Of a stretch of 60,643 nt of DNA, positions 20,578-40,900 are shown in pieces (the first letter of the stretch is position 1; every line of letters starts with the position of its first letter). Location: NCBI GenBank assembly GCA_903837285.1, contig CAILUD010000191.1, forward strand, positions 1 through 60,643, given 5' to 3'. The DNA is from an uncultured Bacteroidota bacterium. Its GTDB lineage: Bacteria > Bacteroidota > Bacteroidia > Bacteroidales > GWA2-32-17. Made by a program: the position numbers and the translations under genes. Under the pieces are notes generated by a model, which was given only the letters and a program-made list of their open reading frames with translations, was not told the DNA's origin and did not search any database.

Positions 20578-20662
20578 TACCCCGGACCGGAATCGAACCG
20601 GTACGGCCTTTGGGGCCACAGGATTTTAAGTCCTGCGTGTCTACCAATTCCACCACCAGGGC
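20578..20662 (-). tRNA. tRNA-Leu(UAA)
   Basis: An 85-nt class II tRNA. The acceptor GCCCTGG pairs with CCGGGGT (two G-U pairs) with discriminator A. The anticodon arm CAGGA-CTTAAAA-TCCTG gives anticodon TAA. A long variable arm (GGCCCCAAAGGCC) and T arm ACCGG-TTCGATT-CCGGT are present. CCA is not encoded. It is second in a two-tRNA cluster behind tRNA-Gly. Confidence 0.96.
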
Positions 20663-20669
20663 GTTAAAA

Positions 20670-20694
20670 AAAACTCTCGGTAGAAGAGAGTTTT
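20670..20694 (-). terminator. Hairpin between tRNA-Gly and tRNA-Leu
   Basis: AAAACTCTC (20670-20678) pairs with GAGAGTTTT (20686-20694), and on the minus strand a T run follows. It may partially terminate or act as a processing hairpin between the two tRNAs, since no separate promoter is seen for tRNA-Leu. Confidence 0.55.
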
Positions 20695-20698
20695 CTTG

Positions 20699-20771
<73 letters not shown>

Positions 20772-26715: not shown

Positions 26716-27143
26716 GATATTTTATTTTGGGTTGTAAAGATAAATATAGTTTTGTTTTTAAAAAGTAGATTTATATGTAAAAGAAATCAAATGTTTGTGT
26801 GATACCATTTGTTCGTGGTGGTAAATTATAAAATAGCCCAATTTTTCTACTCATCTCCCTATCCCTCTTCAAAAAGAGGGACAAAAGGTTGGGCTATTTT
26901 ATACGCCGTGGTGAATGATGATTAATATAACAATATTCAGATTATTATAATTATGTTGAAAACATCAATTTGTGTTAATAATTAATCAAATCCATACATA
27001 GTGAGTGTTTGGAAATTAAAGATCTAATAATCTAAATATTATTATAATTTGTTTAAACTCTGTTGTAATCAGTATTTCATAAGAAATTAACATTTTGTGT
27101 ATAAACTATGTTAATCAATTGTTTATTTAAATCGCTCAAAATA
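26716..27143. other. Gene-free interval before the candidate ncRNA
   Basis: 428 bases with no plausible gene on either strand. It holds a palindromic repeat (26827-26903) and otherwise AT-rich sequence in which I see no further feature. Confidence 0.6.
26827..26903. repeat. Palindromic dispersed repeat, copy 1
   Basis: Outer arms TATAAAATAGCCCAA (26827-26841) and TTGGGCTATTTTATA (26889-26903) are perfect complements. Inside, CCCTCTT and AAGAGGG form a second hairpin. A second copy in the opposite orientation is at 32225-32308, sharing the internal CATCTCCCTA/CCCTCTTC and GAGGGACAA blocks. Confidence 0.85.
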
Positions 27144-27176
27144 TTTGTTTTCAGGGTAATGTCTATTGTATATTTG
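27144..27176 (+). promoter_or_regulatory. Consensus Bacteroidota promoter for the candidate ncRNA
   Basis: TTTG (27144-27147), 21 bases, then TATATTTG (27169-27176). This is a full match to TTTG-N19-21-TAnnTTTG. Transcription would start near 27182. No coding sequence follows for about 800 bases. Confidence 0.75.
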
Positions 27177-27647
27177 TATCATCAGGTGAGCGATAAAAGG
27201 TTAACCTGCTAAGTAAGGGAAATGCAGAGTAGTTCTGTAAAAAGTTCTATAAAACATTTTCGGGTTCTTTCAAGCAATTGCAAAATTGTAACAAGGCTCG
27301 CTGTAAATGAGTCAGGCTGCCAATAAAGTTAAAGCTTTAAAGGTGGAGATAAAATCAGATGACGCAAGTCAAAAGTTTTAATCTGCAATCGGTTGGTTTA
27401 ATTACCACGTAAAATCGCGAATTTGGGGCAACCTAAACACGGCGCCGAAAGTTCTGGGTAATGCAAAGGTAAAACTGAGCAGGGTAATCACTAACAGCCA
27501 AGGCAAAGGAAAAGGCAGCTTTAAATCGGTTGTCACATTCGATGCTGGATCAGCAAGTTGGACATTGGTAACGATGTGCAAATAAATGGTCTGCTTTAGC
27601 AAGTGAAAGGAAAACTGTATTTCTTTAAGGGAAATAAAAGTTCCTGG

Positions 27648-27678
27648 AGTTAAAAAAGGTCTTGCATCTTTTTTAACT
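27648..27678 (+). terminator. First terminator-like hairpin of the ncRNA
   Basis: AGTTAAAAAAG (27648-27658) pairs perfectly with CTTTTTTAACT (27668-27678). The T run lies within the 3' arm. It may be an RNA domain or an early terminator. Confidence 0.55.
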
Positions 27679-27731
27679 GACTGTAATAACAGTAATCTGA
27701 ATCAATAATGAAGTTTACTTCAGAAATTGAT

Positions 27732-27770
27732 AAACGGGGATTTTCGTAAAGAAAGTTCCCGTTTTGCTTT
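27732..27770 (+). terminator. Intrinsic terminator at the end of the ncRNA
   Basis: AAACGGGGA (27732-27740) pairs with TTCCCGTTT (27756-27764) with one G-T wobble, extended by TTTC/GAAA inside, then TGCTTTAT. A GC-rich stem with T-rich tail. Confidence 0.72.
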
Positions 27771-27978: not shown

Positions 27979-28266
27979 ATGAACATTTTTGTTGCAAATT
28001 TGAACTACAAAGTTCAAGACGAAGAATTAAAACAACTTTTTGAAGAATTTGGTACTGTTGATTCAGCACGAGTAATTATTGATCGTGAAACAGGTCGCTC
28101 AAAAGGTTTTGGTTTTATTGAAATGCCTAATGATGAGGAAGCTAATATAGCTCTTAAAGAATTAGAAGGTAAAGAAGTTCAAGGTAAGAACATCGCTGTT
28201 AAAAAAGCTTTCGAAAGAAATAACGAGAGACCACAGCGTCAAGATCGCGGTGGTTATAATTCATAA
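27979..28266 (+). CDS. RRM-domain RNA-binding protein
   Basis: A 95-residue single-RRM protein. RNP2 is IFVANL (residues 3-8) and RNP1 is KGFGFIEM (residues 42-49), with the aromatic residues that stack on RNA in place. A short Arg/Gln/Gly-rich tail (RPQRQDRGGYNS) follows. Such proteins resemble cyanobacterial RNA-binding proteins and are common in Bacteroidota, where some act as global post-transcriptional regulators. The gene has its own promoter and terminator and lies directly downstream of the candidate ncRNA, which might be a target (speculation). Confidence 0.93.
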   Translation: MNIFVANLNYKVQDEELKQLFEEFGTVDSARVIIDRETGRSKGFGFIEMPNDEEANIALKELEGKEVQGKNIAVKKAFERNNERPQRQDRGGYNS

Positions 28267-30729: not shown

Positions 30730-30813
30730 GCCCAGGTGGTGGAATTGGTAGACATATCAGCTTGAGGGGCTGGCGCCTGTATGGGTGTGCAAGTTCGAGT
30801 CTTGTCCTGGGCA
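30730..30813 (+). tRNA. tRNA-Leu(GAG)
   Basis: An 84-nt class II tRNA. Acceptor GCCCAGG / CCTGGGC with discriminator A. The anticodon arm TCAGC-TTGAGGG-GCTGG gives GAG. A long variable arm (GCGCCTGTATGGGTGTGC region) and T loop TTCGAGT are present. CCA is not encoded. A strong terminator follows. Confidence 0.95.
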
Positions 30814-37977: not shown

Positions 37978-40900
37978 ATGAAAGCAAAAAGATTAAAACT
38001 GCAAAGTTCTTTTATACAGAAGAATGCCAAAGTGTTTTTATTCTGTTTTTTATTATTTATATTTATTATTCCAGTAAAATCACAAATTACAATTGATAAT
38101 ACAAAAACAAATGCACAACTCGTTGCCCAATTGCTAGGGTCTGGCGTAAGTGCTTCAAATGTTGTGTTTAGGGGTGTTAGAAATGTAAGCACTAGATATC
38201 AGGTTGGGGCTTTTTCTACAGCAACAACAACTTTAGCTCAAATGGGTTTTACGGGTGGAGTTGTTCTGTCAACTGGAAATATATCTGATATTCCTTTAGC
38301 ATTAGGAACAAATCCAGGAACTGTAGGTCAAATGTCTTATAACTATATTTCAGGAACTACTGGAGAGATCAGGCAAAGCAATCCTGTAGCAGGTCAGGAT
38401 GCAGATGCAGACAATTTAGTAAATGTAAATTATTATAATGCAGCAATTTTAGAGTTTGATTTTGTGCCAGTTGGAGATGCTGTTTCGTTTCGTTATGTAT
38501 TTGGTTCTGAAGAATATTCAGATCAAGGTGGAAGTATAAATTATCAATGTTCTTCATACAATGATAAGTTTGCTTTTTTAATAAGTGGACCAGGAATAGT
38601 TGGAGGACAGGGGTATACAAACAATGCGCGAAATATTGCAAGATTAAATAATGGTGCAGAAGTTGGAATTAATTCAGTAAATGGTGGTGTTGTAGGTTCT
38701 AGCGGTGGAGCTCCTTCGGCAGCAAATTGTGAAGCGGCTTCGCTTACTGCATGGGTACAAAATTCGCCAAGTGCCGAATATTTAGGGCATATAGATGGTA
38801 CAGAATTAAATGGAAACACAAGAATCTTAACAGCTTCACAAACAGGGCTAACGCCCGGTGGTACTTATCATATTCGTTTATTAGTTTCTGATGCTCAAGA
38901 TGGAGCTTATGATGCTGTAGTTTATATAGAAGCTGGAAGTTTTACTAGTCCAACTGCTACTTTAACCACTTCTGCTACCCCTTCAACTATTTGTTCTGGC
39001 AATAGCACATATGCTAAAACCGTTGTTGCTAGCGGAACAGCACCATATAATTACACATGGAGTAATGGTGTAACACATTTAAATAGTCCTAATCCGACTG
39101 ATTCTATTTTAGTTTCACCTGGATCAACATCAACTTATACTGTAACAGTTGTAGATAATCATTTACCAACTGCTACTACATCTGTTGGAAGTGTAATAGT
39201 AACAGTAACACCTTTACCAACAGCATCAATTTCATATACTGGTTCTCCATTTTGCACTTTGGTTTCACCTGTAAGTATAAATTTAACTGGAACAAATGCA
39301 TATACTGGTGGGGCATATTCAGCTACACCAGGTTTAACAATAAATGCATCAACAGGAGAAATAACTCCAAGCTCTAGCACTGCTGGTGGCCCATATACTG
39401 TCACTTATACTATAGCAGCTTCCGGAGGGTGTAGTGCTGTAACAGCAAACTCAAATGTTTCAATTTCGTCACCAGTAAGTCAAACCATTAGTGGAGTTTC
39501 TCAGCTTTGTACTGGACTAACAAACACTTTCACGGTAAGTCCAACTACAGGAGGTGCCTGGTCCAGTTCAGCAACAGGAGTTGCTACGGTAAATCCATCA
39601 ACTGGACTAGTAACTAGTGTTTCAGCAGGCTCAACAATAATTTCATATAGCGTTACAACAGGAGGTTGTGTAAACAATGCCACACAAAACTTAACAATAA
39701 CTTCTCCTGTGAGTCAATCTATTACCGGTGTTTCACAATTATGTACGGGTTCAACAAACACATTTACAAATAGCCCAACTGTAGGTGGCAACTGGACAAG
39801 TTCAGTACCGGGTTTTGCAACAGTAAATTCTTCAACTGGTTTGGTAACCGGAATTTCAGCAGGAACTTCATTAATAACTTATAGTGTAACTACTTCAGGT
39901 GGATGCGTAAACACAGCAACACAAAACGTAACAATTTCAGCACCTGTTTCACAAACAATTACAGGAGTATCTCAACTTTGTAATGGCTTAACAAATTCCT
40001 TTAGCGTAAGCCCTTCATCGGGAGGAGTATGGGCAAGTTCAGCCACAGGAGTAGCTACTGTTAATTCTTCAACAGGATTAGTAACAGGAATTTCTTCTGG
40101 TTCAACAAATATTACATATACTGTTACAACAACTGGTGGATGTGTTAATACTGCAACACAAAGTTTAACAGTTACAAATCCTGTTTCTCAAACAATTACT
40201 GGTGCCTCGCAAATATGTTCAGGCGCTACAGCAAATTACACAATAAGCCCAACTACCGGTGGTATCTGGTCAAGTGGAACAACAGGAGTCGCAACAATTA
40301 ATTCAACTTCAGGACTTATTTTAGCAGTTTCATCAGGCGCTTCTACTATTACATATTCTGTAACAACATCTGGAGGTTGTGTAAATACTGCAACGCAAAC
40401 ATTAACTGTAAATCCATTACCAAATGTTACGGCAACAAGTAATGTTACTTTAAACTCTGTTTGTAATGGTGGAAATGTAACATTAACTGGCGGAGGTGCA
40501 AATTCATATAGTTGGTCGGGTGGAATAACAAATGGAGTTTCATTTACTCCAATAACAACAAATACTTATACTGTAATTGGTACTGACATTAACACATGTC
40601 AGAATAGCGCGCAAATTACTGTAACTGTAAATTCTTTACCAAATATTTCAATTTCAGGATTAAGCTTAAACAATCCAACAGCTTGTTTAGGGGTTGATGG
40701 TCAAATTACAGGAATAACAGTAACGGGCGCACCAATAATTCAATATTCATGGAATGGAGGAGCAAACCAATTATCGCCAAATTTAACTGGCGTTACAGCA
40801 GGTGCATATACATTAGTTGCAACTGATGGTAACGGTTGTGTTTCTTCTGCAGGACCATATTCACTTTCAGATCCGGGAGCACCAGCGGCACCAACAATAA

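Follow-up and report, generated by a model that had tools for sequence, protein, structure and literature searches.

The window, by which we mean the whole 60,643-nt stretch of DNA analysed here, contains a gene for a large structured non-coding RNA. Computation shows that the gene belongs to a family with a conserved promoter and terminator, two helices (P1 and P2) flanking a conserved internal loop, and a covarying interior that varies in size by clade (Table 1). The class is new to Rfam and to the literature that we searched. Upstream of the promoter lies a conserved array of repeats resembling the boxes bound by the replication initiator DnaA, and on balance we favour the reading, drawn from sequence comparison, that this large structured RNA has a gene to itself and would act in trans, and that DnaA would control its transcription. 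The original prediction had described an unassigned structured non-coding RNA, and this description holds well, as the RNA is conserved and covarying, has its own promoter and terminator, and lacks a match in Rfam. The feature is larger than was described at that time, and the conserved array upstream of the promoter had been missed.

The promoter that had been recognised, TTTG followed after 21 nt by TATATTTG, can be read directly in the letters of the window and, together with the motif at the 5′ end of the RNA, recurs in homologues. The region that follows had been called free of genes, and it contains no ORF longer than 34 amino acids on the plus strand or 66 amino acids on the minus strand. 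The raised G+C content reported earlier is also evident, at 0.33–0.44 in 200-nt windows inside the gene and 0.31 across its 5′ end, against 0.19–0.30 just outside. The predicted fold of 27182–27770 lies 5.1 standard deviations below that of shuffled sequences, with none of 100 shuffles as low, and a GNRA hairpin, GAC-GCAA-GUC, was found by reading the sequence directly. Both of the terminator-like stems with T-runs are present: that at 27652–27679 is an internal A/U stem, and that at 27732–27764 is the conserved terminator.

Table 1. Positions in the window of the RNA gene, its promoter and the upstream array of DnaA-box-like repeats.
Feature	Position	Strand	Remarks
Box 1, AAATTAACA	27084..27092	+	Degenerate DnaA-box-like 9-mer; family consensus here TTATNAACA
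Box 2, TGTGTATAA (TTATACACA on the minus strand)	27096..27104	-	Exact TTATNCACA
Box 3, TGTTAATCA	27109..27117	-	Degenerate; offset from box 2 by 13 bp, the consensus spacing of the family
Box 4, TGTTTATTT	27120..27128	-	Degenerate; offset from box 3 by 11 bp, the consensus spacing of the family
Promoter -33 element, TTTG	27144..27147	+	Window letters; also seen in homologues
Promoter -7 element, TATATTTG	27169..27176	+	Window letters; conserved in homologues
Structured non-coding RNA gene	27181..27770	+	About 590 nt; 5′ end predicted from promoter and homologues
P1, 5′ strand, UCAGGU	27182..27187	+	Pairs with 27695-27700; covariation over 110 distinct rows
Conserved internal-loop strand between P1 and P2, GAGCGAUAAAA	27188..27198	+	Homologues
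P2, 5′ strand, GGUUA	27199..27203	+	Pairs with 27678-27682; covariation and window letters
Variable interior domain	27204..27677	+	Many predicted hairpins, including most of the A/U stem 27652-27679
P2, 3′ strand, UGACU	27678..27682	+	Covariation and window letters
Conserved internal-loop strand, AAUAACAGUA	27685..27694	+	Homologues
P1, 3′ strand, AUCUGA	27695..27700	+	Covariation and window letters
P3 hairpin, interval from P1 to terminator	27701..27731	+	Fold; covaries among homologues as helices 20 and 21 in the 27-member consensus
Intrinsic terminator, AAACGGGGA...GUUCCCGUUUUGCUUU	27732..27770	+	Conserved in homologues; fold

Members of the family share a 5′ end, ACCARGUGAGNGAUAAAARG, which is delimited by motif and starts 5 nt after the −7 box, and a 3′ core, AUAACMGUARCYUGG (within a wider consensus RYCANAAUAACMGUARCYUGGC), which pairs back to the 5′ end. 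The helix formed in this way, P1, joins CCARGU to ARCYUGG across approximately 180–815 nt. Over 110 distinct rows, obtained by dropping identical rows and two shifted rows, the successive pairs of P1 are kept in 110, 110, 110, 109, 110 and 97; the second pair is invariant and the sixth is no better than in shuffles. The pairs of P2 are kept in 98, 99 and 100 of the same 110 rows and fade over the last two (78 and 63). When column pairs were ranked by APC-corrected mutual information, the top four of 690 all fell in P1 or P2, and it is between these two helices that the conserved internal loop lies in the members. On the 3′ side of P1 there follow a hairpin, in which CUUCGG or CUACGG is frequent, and then a terminator of the form GGGAA..UUCCC.

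A check on covariation in Bacteroidota homologues had been proposed. The consensus fold of 27 full-length members has 101 pairs, of which 67 have changed on both sides, against a mean of 35.9 in shuffles. Paired cells amount to 94.6% in this consensus; the figure is 84.2% for shuffles and does not exceed 45.9% in the slid control. Cells changed on both sides number 315, compared with a shuffle mean of 88 and a slid maximum of 66. Because the consensus structure was derived from the same alignment, the slid control is biased in its favour. A protein-coding reading, which had been named as the contrary outcome, was rejected: no stretch of 150 columns is open in more than 16 of the 27 rows in any frame, and no frame is kept across members. 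The open-row fraction reaches 0.59 in the alignment against a mean of 0.41 for shuffled rows, stops being somewhat rarer than in shuffles, and the longest ORF averages 55.5 amino acids in members against 47.8 in mononucleotide shuffles, a difference that composition may explain.

Could the RNA nevertheless belong to a known family that has diverged beyond detection by Rfam? Covariance models can miss diverged members, and RF00013 found no 6S RNA in this genome, a null that is itself uninformative because a control Bacteroides genome was also silent. However, the 4227 families of Rfam 15 gave nothing above the gathering cut-off either in 27181–27770, where the original prediction had proposed this check, or in 12 loci, and three relaxed scans, up to E values of 10, 3 and 1, returned nothing meaningful, only implausible weak matches. 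Moreover, RNase P RNA and tmRNA, which had been judged absent from the region by their signatures, were found elsewhere in the genome, with the single RF00010 match on contig C104 and the only RF00023 match over the cut-off on contig C24. We therefore regard a diverged known family as very improbable. The sequence ACAGUA has what we take to be a resemblance to the CR-V motif of RNase P RNA, which was dropped as the strand order differs. In the whole window, Rfam matches are limited to three tRNA genes, at 20578–20771 and 30730–30813. A weak match to mir-8517 in a relaxed scan is due to an imperfect long inverted repeat, AAAATAGCCCAATTTT...AAAGGTTGGGCTATTTTATA, at 26823–26907, upstream of the box array; this repeat is possibly a small mobile or terminator element.

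Several known RNAs come closest. The ROOL, GOLLD and OLE families, which we take to be included among the 4227 models, gave no covariance-model match to the new RNA, which differs from them also in its 5′–3′ closing helix with a conserved internal loop, its Bacteroidota hosts and its DnaA-box-like array. 6S RNA is a trans-acting RNA with a 5′–3′ closing stem, as is generally known, and the new RNA has such a stem and would also act in trans; 6S RNA is far shorter, the RF00013 model having 187 positions, and no 6S match falls in the region. CcnA of Caulobacter is reportedly a non-coding RNA that acts on cell-cycle regulators; the likeness is one of description, and its host belongs to a different phylum. 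ROOL, GOLLD and OLE do share with the new RNA that they are large structured bacterial RNAs with covarying pairs, in the portion of PMC12286853 on which we draw, and 6S-flavo corresponds to RF01685 in a portion of PMC2864571. The exact 5′ pattern has no match in IMG/VR, where a phage association was looked for, and no description of the RNA was found in the full-text literature, a search with preprints and most subscription journals outside its scope. Large ornate RNAs and DnaA-controlled loci are each known separately; their combination was not met in the literature searched.

A DNA search of 99 genomes gave matches in eight. The full gene is present in four of these, namely the window's own genome and three of the same genus (94, 86 and 79% identity), and the other four have the promoter and 5′ end only; one further genome of the genus (G002) and four of the same family (G005, G007–G009) had no match. 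The pattern TTTGN5TCANGTNAGCGATAAAA occurs in 72 stretches among 84,980 species genomes, 71 of them from Bacteroidota or a taxon within it, and when one mismatch is allowed it is found in 33 of the 393 genomes searched within the order, the reversed pattern being found in one. The promoter and 5′ end motif is thus not a product of chance. There were 108 motif matches in the loci, 97 of them distinct in the first 400 nt. Fifteen entries lack the 3′ core: ten run off the stretch and five do not (L018, L019, L068, L082, L092). Two matches, in L018 (Ferrimonas) and L021 (Aequorivita), seem to have arisen by chance. Delimitation by the 3′ core yields 83 non-identical RNAs, rising to 122 of 258–882 nt when model matches are added; the larger set includes the window's own RNA and omits L164, a row without the 5′ motif, and both sets count one gene twice (L027, which is cut, and L106).

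A model of the 3′ domain, R1, was run on 393 Bacteroidales genomes and matches 95 of them at E 0.01, and 87 at 3.2e-5 or better. These 87 carry 33 family labels, by a count of the listing, and 76 have one copy and 11 have two. At the level of the class, R1 matches 32 of 385 genomes, all of which except the window's own come from other orders; in a sample of the phylum it matches eight of 296 genomes, again counting the window's own, and four of these matches are weak. A second model, R2, matches 19 of 292 genomes, several of which are doubtful, as are most of those at E 0.001–0.01: L262 lies on a tRNA-Ser gene, and L263 and L267 have no box among those listed. The family is patchy in its distribution, a point against the reading that we favour. 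Duplicate copies occur in some places (L071 and L098, which are one place, L048, L069, L106 and L062/L077), each copy with its own promoter, 484 to approximately 1500 bp apart and in some cases unequal in length.

An RRM gene is adjacent, as the original prediction noted, occupying 27979–28266 on the same strand and starting about 210 nt downstream of the RNA, but the functional link suggested on that basis finds no support. In a tblastn search of loci L001–L189 the RRM gene was found beside same-genus copies only (the window's own, G001 and G004). Flanking genes, whose names were read by eye from translations, are common to clades only: eno, rplQ and rpoA with a UbiD-like gene in one case, dnaG or a response regulator in others, and others still. 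A conserved neighbour gene was thus rejected in favour of clade-level synteny, and since the neighbours differ by clade, the family as a whole does not have the RRM gene as its partner. Its position downstream on the same strand is what one would expect if the RNA were a leader or regulatory RNA of the RRM gene, yet a conserved terminator stands between the two, and the restriction of the RRM gene to same-genus loci disfavours this reading by synteny; we give it almost no credence. Because flanking genes are shared only within clades, the RNA would be a separate unit acting in trans, and the single copy seen in most of the genomes with strong R1 matches also counts for this.

In most members a phased array lies 60–97 nt upstream of the RNA. 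Its consensus among the member promoters listed, TTATNAACA-AT-TGTTNATAA-N4-TGTTNATAN-NN-TGTKNATAA, is conserved more than the interior of the RNA. The repeat resembles the DnaA box TTATNCACA, with A often in place of C, and its free position is the fifth, as in TTATNCACA. Box 2 is the sole exact box of the window's array and one of only three exact TTATNCACA sites in the 60.6 kb. The palindrome TTATTAACAATTGTTAATAA is found with up to six substitutions in 110 of 118 distinct upstream regions and with two or fewer in 87. Of these 110 matches, 93 start 95–97 nt ahead of the RNA; 13 of the 110 need five or six substitutions and may be chance. TTATN[AC]ACA occurs 194 times in 109 of the 118 regions, being absent from the other nine, against about 24 expected and one for the reversed pattern; the expectation comes from 5900 GC-matched windows, some of which possibly overlap the element. 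Most of these boxes are TTATNAACA, whilst exact TTATNCACA accounts for 11 sites in 10 of the 118 regions, against 1.6 expected. Among 11 outgroup loci, from other orders, with the 5′ motif, a set that excludes L146 (L146/L260), a weak g218 match, exact TTATNCACA lies upstream in five (L142, with TTATCCACA twice, L143, L145, L251 and L257), TTATNAACA only in three (L250, L252 and L254, all at −97), and no box in three (L253, L255 and L256).

It could be argued that a palindrome of this kind reflects a dimeric regulator with a similar half-site. The RNA would then be large, conserved and active in trans, and might assemble with itself, without protein, into an oligomer or cage in the manner of ROOL and GOLLD; its array would be bound by some other DNA-binding protein, with no tie to replication. 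Exact canonical boxes are indeed a minority, and the palindrome with at most two mismatches occurs only zero to three times per genome in 20 carrier genomes, not always at the RNA gene, as might be expected of a dedicated regulator site; the RNA itself is large, rich in hairpins, variable in length and without a linked protein gene. However, the half-sites vary exactly at position 5 of TTATN[C/A]ACA, two more single boxes, both facing the same way, come after them at spacings of 13 and 11 bp, five of the 11 outgroup loci have exact TTATNCACA, and the variants seen at the RNA promoter are also present at the putative origin of Draconibacterium orientale (see below). We consider another regulator somewhat unlikely. 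DnaA-bound promoter regions of E. coli, among them those of nrdA, mioC and purH, have closely spaced DnaA boxes ahead of the transcription unit, and E. coli DnaA prefers boxes spaced by 2 or 3 bp, according to the part of PMC11317965 used here; by analogy, the spacing of 2 bp between boxes 3 and 4 of the window would suit DnaA. In contrast to those E. coli units, what is encoded behind the DnaA-box-like sites here is a large non-coding RNA.

A diverged form of the RNA, type II, probably exists. It was found via some R2 matches, in the family labelled f121, and has AUCAAGAACGACGUACUUUGACA at its 5′ end, CUUGAU at its 3′ end, and the same hairpin and terminator. The 5′ pattern is present in 25 of 111 genomes of f121, against one for the control. 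P1 has changed on both sides, to AUCAAA/UUUGAU in L294, AUCAAAU/AUUUGAU in L296 and AUAAG/CUUAU in L271 and L274; in L280 and L295 it pairs poorly in the same reading. On the basis of the shared layout and weak model scores, we infer homology between the two types. Boxes are found at −100 to −55 in 23 of the 25 loci counted, or 23 of 27 if L276 and L277, which have no box, are included, with preferred places at −94 to −92, −73/−72 and −61/−60. Type II (L270–L296) comes in two sizes: among the 20 listed, the 3′ hairpin usually lies at 255–368 nt, but in L281–L285 it lies at 537–549 nt.

An array of DnaA-box-like repeats in an AT-rich upstream region raises the question of whether the site is itself an origin of replication, or something resembling one, with the RNA as an origin transcript. 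The complete chromosome of D. orientale (NZ_CP007451.1) allows this to be considered directly. It has one copy of the RNA, at about 421.5–422.0 kb (0.42 Mb), with a predicted length of about 525 nt and a predicted start near AUCAGGUGAGCG. Third-position skew changes sign at 1.8–2.1 Mb and at 4.3–4.7 Mb, and within 1.82–2.10 Mb the fine GC-skew minimum falls at 1,929,361. Close by, 1,929,000–1,929,302 is the only place in the 680 kb examined with at least four boxes in 250 bp, namely TGTGTATAA, TTATTAACA, TGTTAATAA, TGTGGATAA and TTATTCACA. We take 1,929,000–1,929,361 (L241) as the putative chromosome origin. The skew minimum and the only box cluster at 1.929 Mb, with the RNA at 0.422 Mb, contradict the origin reading in this genome, and in the window there is no cumulative GC-skew minimum at the RNA; such an explanation is very unlikely. 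The two-box array of the D. orientale RNA promoter would fail the cluster test used for its origin. As the RNA gene lies 1.5 Mb from the putative origin at 1.93 Mb, any link between the two would be through DnaA and not through position. In this one genome the box variants of the RNA promoter, TTATTAACA and TGTTAATAA, recur beside TGTGGATAA in the cluster, suggesting that the RNA-promoter variant is used at the putative origin. In the genome of the window, a second TTATCAACA-AT-TGTTAATAA pair occurs in an AT-rich gap at 40073–40092 of contig C231 (L220), where more repeats, TTATCAAC and TGTTGACAA, lie in the vicinity; it is a candidate for an origin or a site of the DnaA type.

Non-coding DNA that lies apart from the origin and holds several DnaA-box-like sites also brings to mind datA, DARS1 and DARS2 of E. 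coli, non-coding chromosomal loci with several DnaA boxes in the part of PMC4585315 on which we draw. Loci of this type are defined by promoting DnaA-ATP hydrolysis or DnaA-ADP reactivation. The site might then be primarily a DNA element that regulates DnaA, with transcription of the RNA through or next to the element serving only to modulate it. Here, by contrast, the boxes lie outside the RNA and upstream of a promoter at a fixed distance, and what follows is a covarying RNA, under strong selection for pairing, with its own terminator. An element of the datA or DARS type is for us a decidedly unlikely account.

Returning to the preferred reading, a DnaA-controlled gene for a trans-acting RNA, DnaA would bind the upstream array and thereby set the level of a stable RNA. 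That level would then track how active DnaA is, and with it the replication cycle. A protein common to all members may dock at the conserved loop between P1 and P2, and the variable interior may be tuned to the lineage, with the RNA acting in trans as the core of a ribonucleoprotein. The likeliest target would be a process that needs to be matched to replication, for which the first candidates are the activity of DnaA itself and RNA metabolism.

In conclusion, we have described a large structured RNA with strong covariation that is found in many families of a major bacterial phylum and is without a match in Rfam 15. More tentatively, it is possible that this is an ancient, perhaps phylum-wide RNA gene of the Bacteroidota with a promoter wired to DnaA: an RNA of the replication cycle, bound by a conserved protein at its P1/P2 loop, through which the activity of DnaA, and hence the copying of the chromosome, would be relayed to RNA metabolism or to DnaA in turn. 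If the link to DnaA is true, the RNA would be coupled to replication and would give direct access to the way in which Bacteroidota time it. D. orientale, with one copy in a complete genome, is a ready target.
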